Shown one piece after another: positions 57,071 through 64,000 of a DNA stretch of 64,000 bases. The stretch's first letter is position 1. Each line of letters opens with the position of its first letter. Source of the stretch: Utricularia gibba (Eukaryota > Streptophyta > Magnoliopsida > Lamiales > Lentibulariaceae); contig NEEC01000020.1 of the NCBI GenBank assembly GCA_002189035.1, positions 496,001 through 560,000 on the forward strand. The letters run 5' to 3'. Made by a program: the position numbers and the translations under genes. A model generated the notes under the pieces. The model ran no database searches. It saw only the letters and a list, made by a program, of their open reading frames with translations, and had not been told where the DNA came from.

Positions 57071-58453
57071 ATGGCGGATCAAGGAGAGATCTCTGCGTCG
57101 TCGGTAGATGCAGTGATTGATTCCACGGCGGAGAAGATTGCAGCTACCGAAGATCTGTCGAAGGTTCTGGAATCGAGTGTTGAGCCTGAGACCGCAGAAC
57201 ATCCTGAAGTAATCGTGGCGCAGGAGAGGGAGCTGTTGAACTTGTTCGGCCGTAAAAAGCCTCATCACAAATCTGTATGTGGAGTTAAGCGTAAGTGCAC
57301 TCTGCTCCACTTCCGATTATCCGCTGTACGGCTGTAGGTGTTAATGATCGCCGTCGTAACACGAGTTTCCTGAAAATACGAAAGCATGTTTATTTTTTTC
57401 TGCAGCTTTTGATGTTTTCTTGTGGAGGAAGAAGAAAATATCTGCTGCAGTGCTTGGGGGAGCAACAGTTCTTTGGGTTCTGTTTGAATTGCTGAATTAT
57501 CATCTGACGAGTGTTGTATCCCATGTCTTGATATTTTCCATTGGATCGCTGTTCTTGTGGTCCAACGCCTCTATCTTCATTCACAAGTGAGGATATTGAA
57601 CTTCTTTCAGTTAAGCTGCTCCATATGTTTTTATGTAACTTCGGTTAACATTTATTTACAGGCGACCTCCGCATATTCCAGATGTTCGTCTTCCAGAGGA
57701 AGCGTTTGTTGAACTCGCTTCCATCTTTCGTGAGGAAACCAATCGTGGTCTAGCTGAGCTTCGAGACATTGCTTCCGGACAGGATGTTAAGAAGTTCCTC
57801 ACTGTAAGTCAAACCTTATTCCAACTCTGCAAAATCCCTTCCTTCACTTCCTCAGTGATTCCTGGTTCTTCTGCTGCACTCATCGATTGTGACTATGAAC
57901 TCACAATTGCCACTTCACCACAAAACTGTCACACGATTGGAAAAACAGAGAGATGCCTTCGTCACCATCTTCCAGGAAAACCTTGTGAAACGATAGGCCA
58001 TACAACAAGTTTGTGCCTCTGGTTTCACAAGGAGAACCAATTTCGGCAAAGGCATCTTCCTGTTTTTGCAAGAGGGTTGTTAGTAAAATGGGAACCAGTC
58101 TTGACTCTGCATCCAATCCTTGAACACCAGGTTATTGCTGCCCTGTGGCTTCTCTCAATAGTGGGCAGCTTCTTCACCTTCTTGACACTGGCTTATATCC
58201 GTAAGTCCGCGATGCCCGTGTGCGCATTACACATATTCTTCTTCCCATTCACTCAACATCTGTTCTTCTACCACCCAATGTTTCAGTGTTGGTGGCGGCG
58301 CTCACGCTCCCTGTCCTGTATCAGAAGCATAAGAACGAAGTGGACTCCCTTGCGGAGAAGGCAGTCTCTGAGCTCAAGAAACAGTATGATGTCCTGGATG
58401 CCAAGGTTCTGAGTAGGATTCCGAGGCTGCCATTGGACAAGAAGAAGGATTGA
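57071..58453 (+). CDS. Reticulon-like protein B (RTNLB), ER membrane shaping
   Basis: Five exons (57071-57290, 57406-57586, 57662-57803, 58131-58200 and 58287-58453) give 259 residues. An acidic N-terminus of about 60 residues leads to the reticulon homology domain: [28 protein letters not shown], two long hydrophobic hairpins ([13 protein letters not shown]... and [20 protein letters not shown]), and the closing [15 protein letters not shown]. The wedge-like hairpins curve and tubulate endoplasmic-reticulum membrane. The C-terminus LPLDKKKD has a lysine-rich end. Together with KPHMT and the bZIP gene, the order matches At2g46110, At2g46170 and At2g46270 (from memory), suggesting an RTNLB5/6-type member. 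Confidence 0.92.
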
Positions 58454-59543: not shown

Positions 59544-61368
59544 CACGTGGCTCGATAAGATAAACTATTGAATAAATCAAAAACAATTTTCTAATTCATA
59601 AATTTAAATATTATCAATTTCCAAAATTTGTCAATATGTACTCTAAATCCTAAATCTTGAAATCTAAACCTTAAATTGTAAACCCTAAATCTTATACACA
59701 ACATGACAATGTTAATAACAAAAATAGAGCATCGGGTTTTTTTAGAAAATATTATAAATGGTGTGGGGTATTTTTGTAAGTTTCTCTATAAATTATTAAG
59801 TGTTTTAAAATAATAATCTTTACGAAAAAAATACGTAAATTTTAACAAATATTTCATTTCTATATGATATTTTCGTAATTACATCTAATTTCGAAATCAT
59901 TAAAATATATTCTTTATTAATTTTCAGCTTATTTAAATTAATAATTAAATAATAACGTGCTGACAGGTGGACCAATCAGCGACACCCAGGCATCTATATT
60001 ATTACCCTGATTCACGTGGTCTGCCGACCTCCGTGACAGATCAGCCTCCTGGTCCGGAGGGCCCACATGGCTTCTTCAGTCGTACTTTGCCCTGTCGTGT
60101 CCACGTGTTCGAAGATCTCCGTCGGTTGGTATTTTGCCACGTGTGAGTTTGCTGCATTTCTTTTTCTCTATTTAAATGGAAATAATAATTTCGATAATGT
60201 TAAATATTTTTTAAAATTACTGTCGATGTTGTCTGGTGTGGGTTTTTTAAATAATACCACGAATTTGTCTCTTTTTATTTGGTAATAATTCGAGGAGTAC
60301 GGGGGCCCACCGCCCCGGACTTGAACGCCCCCATCAAATCCAGTTAACTTTCGTCGAAACATGTGGATGTAAAAGGAATTTAAAAAGAAGAGAGACACTT
60401 CGGACACGTGCCTGGTTGAAGGATCCGTCGACAAGGAACACGCCGCGTCGATTGCGTCACAGTCGTACACGTGGACGGTGGATTTGACGTCTCACTATAC
60501 CTGATTGGACGGCGTTGCATTTGCTTTCTATGTTTTTGCAAGAATGGCTCCATGCTCTTTCGATGATGCCAGCGGATCCGTACTATTTAAATGATGAATC
60601 TATTCAATGCTCAACCACGACCAGGCACTGGTTTGGATTGACTCCCAATAAAACCTTCACTAAATATCAAAATATCGTATAAAGAAAATATATCGTAATA
60701 TTTGATATCAGATTTAAACCCGAATATATACGAATATTGGAATAAGATTACTCAGTATCTAAATGGGAAAGAATGTAACATAATAGAGTTTGAGACGATG
60801 TTTTGTATTGATTACGAATGGAAGAGTGAACTTACTAATGTTTTATGAAGATTTTTTTTGAAAAATATAGAATCGTAAGAATTATATATCCAAAATAGAT
60901 AATATTTATGATTTGTGATATTATATGAATTTAATAAACTTTCATGTTTTAAAAAAAAATGTACTTTGATTCTTAAATATATGAATTTAATCTTTTAAAC
61001 CTCCTTACCAAATGTGACCTTATATTAAACTTTTTATCATGCTAATGCTATTAATCTAATAATAATAAATAATAAATAAATGATTGACTTGTGAAAAAGA
61101 ATGTTGATGTCATATATACAAGTTAAAATAATATTCTCCATGAATAAAATTCAATTTTGATGATGATGACGTATTTAATACAAAAATATGAAAAAAATAA
61201 TTATTCTTGTATAATAAAAGTAACACATTAGGGGAAATTGCTATTTATAGATTTATTACCTAATTAAAAACTGATTTAAAAGAATATGAAAAAAAGAAGA
61301 AAAGGAATTTGCAGTTTTCCCGTGTCGTGATTGGATATGTACCAACTATTTGCACGCAAAGACACGTG
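59544..61368. promoter_or_regulatory. Cluster of seven CACGTG G-boxes upstream of the bZIP gene
   Basis: CACGTG occurs at 59544-59549, 60013-60018, 60102-60107, 60138-60143, 60405-60410, 60468-60473 and 61363-61368. Several have G-box contexts such as GCCACGTGG and GACACGTG. Chance alone predicts fewer than one in this length. G-boxes bind bZIP G-box factors and bHLH proteins. The downstream gene encodes a G-box-binding bZIP, so auto- or cross-regulation is a reasonable inference. Confidence 0.6.
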
Positions 61369-62492
61369 TAAGATGACGTGGAGTTGTGCCTCGGCGGTCC
61401 TCCTTTCTTCTTCTTCCTCCTCCTCCTCCCATCGCATTCTCTCTCTCTCCCCCTCTCAAAAGCCTCACAGAGCTCCACAAAACGATACTCGGAGAAAAAT
61501 ATTGGACAAAAAAGGAATTATGTGATACAAATGTCATCAATATAGTTTTCTCGAGCTTCCCACAACCTCGGCTGCTTCTAATCTAGCCAAGTAGGCACAA
61601 ATCTCAGGCTCATTACCTTTTTTTTTTCCTTTTTCTTTTTCTGCGGCCTTGGTTGATCACCGTATTTTCGTCTGGGTTTTTACTGTGTGACTATTTGGGT
61701 AGAAGGGGTTTTGGTGTTCCCAGTTTCTGTAATTTGATGAATGGTTTTGTGGGTTTGTTGCAATGTACGATTGTTGTTTCTAGGGATTGTTGACAATCCT
61801 TTCTTTTTTTTTTTTACTGGTGTAACAGAGTCACTGTGGTTCATCATCCTTTAGGTTTATGGATCGGGGATTTGGGTGCTTTGGGAGGACAAAATTGACT
61901 TTAGGAACTGGTTTTAACCGAACCATGTCCCGGCATACCAAGTGGGCTTAGAGTTGTCGGCAAAGGGAGAGGTTTAGCGGTACTGGGTTGTAGCTAAAGG
62001 ACGATAAAACCCTTTTTTTCGATGTTCCATTCTGGCTTGTTTATGATGTTTCTCAAGTGTCAAGTGGCATCTTTTTCTATGGGAAGGCAGGGGGTATTGA
62101 ATTGAGGGTAACAGAGATCTGAATACCTTTTCAAGGGAAGCAGGGTTTTTTGTTTTCGCATCCTGGTCAGTCAGTGTTTATGATCGACCTAGTCTTTCAT
62201 CTTGGGCTGGTGAAAGTTTTTTGGAAACATTGGCACTGATTGAGTAACTTTTTAGCAAAACTTGTCTTCATATGTTGATTTTATGCGATTATCTTTTATC
62301 ATGGTATAATTTTTTCACAGCCCTGTTATCACTCCTTGCATTGAACATTTCTGATTTCAGGTTTGGGTGCCACACCTGTCGTGCTTGTATGCCATATTCT
62401 CTGAGTTCAACGGTCTGTGGTTATTATATGTAATGCCCTGAAAGGAGAATCTTGTTTCTGCCATTGAGTAGGAAAGATCAGGAGGCTGAACA
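61369..62492 (+). other. Leader region of the bZIP gene, probably with an intron
   Basis: A CT-rich stretch at 61400-61480 looks like the transcription-start region and 5' leader. CCAA|GTAGGC near 61589 and TTCTGATTTCAG|GTTTGG near 62360 are a plausible donor and acceptor for one leader intron of about 770 nt. The sequence between them is T-rich as in plant introns. Confidence 0.45.
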
Positions 62493-63985
62493 ATGGGAAA
62501 CAGTGGGGAAGAAGGAAAGAATGCCAAGAAGAATGATAAAACACCTCCACCTCCTGCTGTGAGCATATCTCCTACTTGTTATGTTTTATGATCTATGAAT
62601 ATTAGCTACTTGTCTTTGTGATCAAGATGACTTTGCTCTGCTGACTCTTTGTTTCAGACCGTGATGAATAACTGCCACGCTTATCCTGATTGGTCAACTG
62701 TTCAGGTGATCATCTTGCTACTCTGCCTCTGAAAAACTAGAGATGTCTTTGTGAATCATGCTTCGATATTCCTATCACTTTTAGGCGTTTTATGGTCCGT
62801 GCCTTGCAATGCCACCGTACTCAAACTCACCTGTAACCTCATCTCCTGCAACACCCCCTTATATGTGGGGTCCCTCACAGGTTTCGACGACATTTACGCA
62901 CTGTGAAATTCATGTAAACTGTGATAATGTATCATTGCTTAATTTGACAACATGGATCCCTTGTTTTTTCAGTCTATGATCGCTCATTATGGAGCTCCTT
63001 ACACTGCATTCTATGCTCCATTTGCACACCCTGGAGTTCCAGTGGTAACTTCCTCCAAGACATCAGCATCTTGAAAAAGGAATGCATTTTCCTCAATAGC
63101 TTATCATACAATTGTGTGTTTGTTTGCAGGCTGGGGGTGCTGCTCCTACCATGGAATCACCAGCCAAGTCAGCTGGGAATTCAGGTGAAAGAGTTCTGAA
63201 GAAGCATAAAGAGATCGACGGCCTTGCGATTTCGATAGGAAATGGAAGTGTTGATGACAATGATCCTCCAACTGAGCATCAATCATCTGACAGGTTTATC
63301 TCCTTTAATCCTTGCTTGGGGTGGCTTCTGTGTAGCCACTTCCTCTTTGCTCTGCTGCTGATTCACACTCCGGCATCCACAGTGAAGCAACTGATGGTTC
63401 TAGCCATGGAAGCAATGGCGGTTTAGCCAGAGTAAGCGTCTCTTCTGTAGCATAATGTTCGTTTTCATAGAATTGTTGCATTACTGTACTTGCATTCTAC
63501 ACAGACCGCCAAAGGTCACAGGAAGAGGAGCCATCAAACTTCTCCCACTAAAGGTATGAAGCCATAGACTGTAAATTCTCCATTTCCATGGTTTCTTATT
63601 CTTCGAAACACCGATAGAACCGCCAGTTTGATCTTGTCCTATTTATGTTTCAGAGCATGCGAAAGCTCAGAAGGAAAATGTGTTTCCCTCTACTGAAGCC
63701 GGCCGAGCATTCGACGCGGTTCCTTCGAATGCAACTGGAGAAAAATCAGGGAATGTATCTACTCCTTTGGACTTCAAGAGTATGAAGCCAACTCCAGTTG
63801 ATGCTTTGCAGCCAAGTCCTTCTGAGACATGGCTACAGGTTTGTTCTTAAGTGATCTATCAGTTTGATTTCACAACTTCTGTGCCTGATGTTTGCATCAA
63901 ACTGTAGAATGAGCAAGAACTGAAGCGGGAGAGACGAAAGCAATCGAACCGAGAATCGGCACGCAGATCACGATTGCGGAAGCAG
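62493..63985 (+). CDS. G-box-binding bZIP transcription factor (GBF type), 3' end outside the window
   Basis: Nine exons lie inside the window: 62493-62558, 62658-62705, 62785-62880, 62973-63044, 63130-63293, 63383-63431, 63505-63553, 63654-63838 and 63908-63985, coding for 269 residues so far. The N-terminus starts MGNSGEEGK and is followed by the Pro-rich GBF activation region (YPDWSTVQAFYGP, PPYMWGPSQ, GAPYTAFYAPFAHPGVP). The middle has KKHKEIDGLA and a Ser-rich stretch. The last exon holds the basic region RRKQSNRESARRSRLRKQ with the N-x7-R signature. The leucine zipper lies beyond 64000. Group G bZIPs bind CACGTG in light-, ABA- and stress-regulated promoters. Position next to KPHMT and reticulon favours GBF3 (At2g46270, from memory) over GBF2. 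Confidence 0.92.
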
Positions 63986-64000
63986 GTAATGGATCCCATT

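Follow-up and report, generated by a model that had tools for sequence, protein, structure and literature searches.

The seven CACGTG motifs (G-boxes) ahead of a bZIP gene in this Utricularia gibba window, by which we mean the whole 64-kb stretch of DNA that was analysed, most likely mark a preserved control region, possibly a self-regulating one. We assign a probability of about 0.6 to the reading that they form a two-part promoter of a GBF2/3-type bZIP gene (GBF, G-box-binding factor), which would be bound by ACGT-class bZIP dimers, with group-G GBFs and group-A ABF/AREB factors as the likeliest. Judged from the sequences of paralogs, the regulatory importance of the region is well supported; that conservation among them is centred on the boxes speaks for a role in controlling this gene. 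We infer that bZIPs bind here in vivo, with the GBF itself among the binders.

The gene starts with the ATG at 62493, and its 11 coding exons, joined from there to window-equivalent position 64474 (C317:560474), encode a protein of 389 aa. This protein combines an N-terminal MFMR domain (PF07777, E 7.5e-22, residues 1-93) with a bZIP DNA-binding/zipper domain (bZIP_1, PF00170, E 1.2e-19, residues 245-307), the combination that defines group-G (GBF) membership, so the GBF-type call made in the first-pass annotation holds. Over 68 bZIP residues, the window gene (C317) groups with the genes at C328:2.279 Mb, C375:2.705 Mb (C375b) and C412:0.568 Mb, with a split support of 0.989. These four share the signature KRERRKQ..QAEAE and stand apart from GBF1-like and bZIP16/68-like genes, which carry KRQ(R/K)RKQ..AEC. 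We take them to be of GBF2/3 type, an assumption made from features of the Arabidopsis proteins rather than from an alignment. In the bZIP region, C317 is identical to each of the other three at 47-48 of 68 residues, as against 60 of 68 between C375b and C412; therefore, only the latter two look like a recent pair. The U. gibba genome, of ~100 Mb, has undergone two recent whole-genome duplications (PMC8333044). Downstream of the bZIP gene, the minus-strand sequence at L011:2040-2960 resembles, as judged by eye, a class III (GH18) chitinase gene.

The features of the locus, in window positions, are the following.

57071-58453, plus strand: reticulon (RTNLB-type) gene, the upstream neighbour on the same strand, bounding the 4-kb intergenic region.
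59544-59549, no strand assigned: G-box 1, GCCACGTGGC, an ABRE on both strands; the most distal box, without an aligned paralog counterpart.
60013-60018, no strand assigned: G-box 2, TTCACGTGGT, without an aligned counterpart in paralogs.
60102-60107, no strand assigned: G-box 3, TCCACGTGTT, with weak local likeness to a differently ordered G-box of C375b/C412.
60138-60143, no strand assigned: G-box 4, GCCACGTGTG, 36 bp past box 3; a minus-strand ABRE.
60331-60478, plus strand: distal module, a CATCAAATCCA-TTAA stretch followed by the box A/box B pair, which aligns with C375b and C412.
60405-60410, no strand assigned: G-box 5 (box A), GACACGTGCC, also kept in C375b and C412.
60464-60478, plus strand: G-box 6 (box B), which together with its conserved flanks reads CRTMCACGTGKACGG and is shared by all four GBF2/3-type promoters.
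60671-60906, no strand assigned: segment of the AT-rich spacer that separates the distal module from the proximal one, matching dispersed repeats elsewhere in the genome.
61361-61381, plus strand: proximal module P, G-box 7 (CACGTG at 61363; GACACGTGT) plus TGACGTGG, with counterparts in all four GBF2/3-type promoters.
About 61390-61460, plus strand: CT-rich stretch, the putative 5' UTR start or TSS area as read from the sequence.
62493-64000, plus strand, running past the window to C317:560474: GBF2/3-type group-G bZIP gene, 11 modelled exons.

The first-pass annotation had described seven boxes within 1.8 kb, including two close pairs, where chance would give about 0.4, and this description proved accurate. 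The boxes start at 59544, 60013, 60102, 60138, 60405, 60468 and 61363 (interval 59544-61368) and make up half of the 14 CACGTG copies in the whole window. Measured start to start, the boxes of the first close pair (60102/60138) are 36 bp apart, those of the second (60405/60468) 63 bp, and 60013 and 60102 are separated by 89 bp. The assembly scanned (100.09 Mb in 516 contigs, of which contig C1 comprises 8.5 Mb) contains 25,810 copies, or 0.258/kb, and therefore 0.47 would be expected in 1825 bp, not far from the 0.4 of the first-pass annotation. Dinucleotide shuffles of the interval gave a mean of 0.14 and a maximum of 3, so that seven was reached in 0 of 5000; for the core (60013-60473, 461 bp, five boxes) the mean was 0.135, and five was likewise reached in 0 of 5000.

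Under a Poisson model, about 0.26 clusters of the size of 59544-61368 are expected in the whole genome. A negative-binomial model with overdispersion of 1.13-1.3 raises this to about 1-6 (~0.9 with the variance taken from the first 584 kb of C1, ~6 if the variance-to-mean ratio is 1.3). The seven-box cluster is thus rare even on the genome scale. Core-like G-box triples occur at about a dozen places genome-wide, and at 7 once a satellite is set aside. The genome also contains 319 G-box pairs with a gap of 0-30 against 206 expected, and 215 with a gap of 31-60 against 200 expected, a weak general tendency of G-boxes to cluster. A tandem satellite at C243:16334-29830 and C255:3827-12497, whose unit carries CACGTGGCACCGACGCGCGCGCC..., repeats perfect G-boxes many times over and inflates genome counts of clustered G-boxes. 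An origin of the cluster as a copied repeat was rejected: the whole interval has no second copy, and matches to dispersed repeats are confined to parts of the spacer.

Retention of the motifs in relatives, on which the first-pass annotation had made its reading depend, was examined among paralogs inside one genome, where it is evident both as clusters and as two aligned modules. Within 3 kb above the ATG there are seven CACGTG copies in C317, five in C328, five in C375b and six in C412, with a Poisson p of 1.7e-5 to 1.2e-3 per gene; no 3-kb window with five boxes was found in a 584-kb sample of C1. The four group-G genes of other types with a clear ATG (GBF1-type and bZIP16/68-type) have one box each. 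Two further GBF1-like genes with less certain starts, C413 and C1b, have three and two boxes scattered over 10 kb and no comparable cluster. Since the sister genes whose ATG is clear have a single box, the cluster follows the GBF2/3 subclade. That it might be private to the window locus had been suggested by an MFMR-family search, which found, beside the window gene, only GBF1-type and bZIP16/68-type genes with one start-near G-box each; this was overturned by a full-protein search that found the closest paralogs. Separately, the genes of the pairs C255/C375 and C4/C496 (bZIP16/68-like and GBF1-like) each retain a single CACGTG, located 770-890 bp ahead of the ATG. Because the sequence around this box is conserved between the two members of a pair, a start-proximal single G-box may be general in group G.

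Within the clusters, conservation is concentrated in the distal and proximal modules. In the distal module, boxes A and B are separated by 63 bp in C317, 61 bp in C375b and 65 bp in C412. The alignment score was reached by 0 of 500 randomised sequences for C375b and by 3 of 500 for C412; for C328, where the match is clear only for box B with its flank, 141 of 500 reached it, and the distal alignment of that gene alone is not significant. The proximal pattern, GACACGTGT..GATGACGTGGAGTTG, was matched in score by 0-1 of 500 randomised sequences for C375b, C412 and C328. The box form GACACGTGT is kept in three paralogs, C317 included, while C328 has GACACGTC in place of the G-box, and C375b and C412 have TGATGTGG as the second element. 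Genome-wide, the patterns CRTMCACGTGKACGG and GACACGTN{3,8}TGAYGTGG match solely in the four GBF2/3-type promoters; these four matches follow by construction, and the informative part is that no match occurs anywhere else.

Of the seven boxes, only A, B and P have aligned counterparts. The remaining ones have turned over, with the number of boxes roughly kept. G-box 3 (60102) was rejected as a third box shared with C375b and C412, the match being out of order and not significant (E 0.77-0.96). C328 has a close G-box pair upstream that is not aligned to the window boxes. Between B and P, C375b and C412 share a CACGTGGCCACGTG pair, a double G-box (CACGTGGCCACGTGGTTGAAGAG) whose 23 bp are the same in both genes and which is absent there in C317.

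The CT-rich stretch is likely the start of the 5' UTR, and a comparable arrangement follows the proximal box in the paralogs. Box 61363 would then lie immediately ahead of the start, with the six remaining boxes about 0.9-1.9 kb above it. As such, the boxes all lie ahead of the gene, as the first-pass annotation had it, but only one of them is near the predicted start. The distance of the other six is partly due to the repeat-bearing AT-rich spacer: box B lies 895 bp from the proximal module in C317, as compared with about 515 bp in C375b, 363 bp in C412 and 157 bp in C328. The upstream reticulon gene has a duplicate at C1:832521-833219, with 59-79% identity by exon and alignable 3' sequence. 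Its surroundings were checked for a lost GBF, and neither a GBF gene nor a G-box cluster was found beside it; that copy of the neighbourhood therefore lost the bZIP gene or never had one.

In our proposed mechanism, ACGT-class bZIP dimers would bind at two places, a proximal ACGT module just above the transcription start and, ~0.95 kb or more upstream (closer in the paralogs), a distal G-box-rich block, and thereby set the output of the gene. The likeliest occupants would be group-G GBFs, with the four paralogs regulating themselves and one another, and stress-activated group-A ABF/AREB factors alongside them. Group-G GBFs bind CACGTG, which would make auto- and cross-regulation among the four genes natural. 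The first-pass annotation had gone further, arguing from a product that binds this very motif to a locus wired for feedback. Since G- and C-boxes are not enriched in the promoters of Arabidopsis bZIP genes overall (PMC4012195), a motif-binding product alone is no evidence of feedback. The part of that reading that stands draws on the retention of the cluster in this gene type and on a published GBF3 parallel. Two features of autoregulated promoters were found here, namely an excess of the product's own motif upstream and retention of the motif in relatives, in this case paralogs.

The closest known system is the Arabidopsis GBF3 promoter, where DAP-seq peaks combined with motif scanning gave three bZIP sites at -116 to +1 and seven at -1312 to -701; GBF3 and other bZIPs were placed on this promoter, and self-activation was inferred (PMC12795827). 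It belongs to the same gene type as the window gene and likewise has proximal and distal blocks of bZIP sites, with self-activation proposed for GBF3. The resemblance is one of layout, and the GBF3 result comes from DAP-seq peaks and weight matrices. In addition, the distal block of the window gene is further up, at about -950 to -1900, separated from the proximal block by the AT-rich spacer with its repeat. By analogy with the published self-activation, feedback is plausible here, and the sign of the loop is more likely to be activation. W-box-rich WRKY promoters offer a second parallel, in that the motif of a family crowds its own promoters and leads to auto- and cross-regulation (PMC4012195); there the crowding is family-wide, whereas the present case, given the lack of bZIP-wide enrichment, is limited to one subclade.

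The strongest alternative is an ABA/drought-response array, in which group-A ABF/AREB bZIPs would induce the gene by binding to the boxes as to ABREs, with direct self-binding by the GBF unimportant. ACGTGKC is present on at least one strand in four of the seven boxes (59544, 60138, 60405 and 61363), and the retained proximal GACACGTGT form speaks for the same readers. Drought induces GBF3 itself, which has a role in ABA responses (PMC5567290). ABA-induced genes whose ABRE clusters are bound by ABF/AREB factors likewise have several ACGTGKC elements per promoter; the window promoter resembles them at the level of the motif, in four of its seven boxes. On the other hand, the DAP-seq-based Arabidopsis analysis has GBF3 itself among the binders of its own promoter, and B (TACACGTGGA), which is the best conserved of the distal boxes, does not strictly fit the ABRE motif. 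We regard an array without GBF self-binding as rather unlikely. The ABRE and GBF-feedback readings are compatible with each other, and ABF/AREB bZIPs are comparably good candidate readers of the sites; with four ABRE-type boxes and a drought-induced GBF3, their input is likely as well.

CACGTG is also a bHLH E-box, and GBFs work in light signalling. The boxes could thus be read chiefly by bHLH (PIF/MYC-like) factors or by HY5, under light or circadian control, and the fact that many bZIP and bHLH factors read G-boxes does count against our preferred reading. We consider this alternative improbable, at about the level of an outside chance. Two elements are bZIP-type rather than bHLH sites, namely the partner TGACGTGG, present in C317 and C328, and the GACACGTC form of C328, which makes bHLH input less likely; this evidence is modest and does not count against HY5, itself a bZIP.

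A chance cluster without a regulatory role is very improbable. With overdispersion, a handful of equally dense clusters may exist in the genome, and similar triples are found at about 7-12 non-satellite places. Nevertheless, all four GBF2/3-type paralogs are clustered and their aligned modules are centred on boxes, so that chance is already contradicted by retention. Least credible of all is a distal block serving another transcript, either an unannotated gene or the reticulon 3' side, for although the block is about equally far (~2 kb) from the stop codon of the reticulon gene and from the ATG of the GBF gene, the interval between the two genes has no Rfam match and only short ORFs as coding content, the paralogs have the same module upstream of a GBF with no reticulon match in the upstream stretch examined, and the C1 reticulon duplicate lacks the cluster along with the GBF.

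Altogether, the preferred reading, a two-part bZIP-bound promoter, bears on how transcription factors control their own genes. Crowding their promoters with their own motif is a standard route to feedback for transcription factors, and bZIPs as a family are reported not to take it; a cluster retained in one subclade, with the short elements B and P, would be a specific exception. More tentatively, we consider it possible, at somewhat less than even odds, that an old two-module G-box promoter wires the GBF2/3 paralogs into mutual auto- and cross-regulation and was kept through repeated duplications and box turnover in a plant whose intergenic DNA is compact, as an exception to the bZIP-wide non-enrichment. 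The window promoter agrees with what has been proposed independently in the literature for the drought-related regulator GBF3 of Arabidopsis, and may possibly be a self-regulated GBF promoter of the kind already proposed for that gene.
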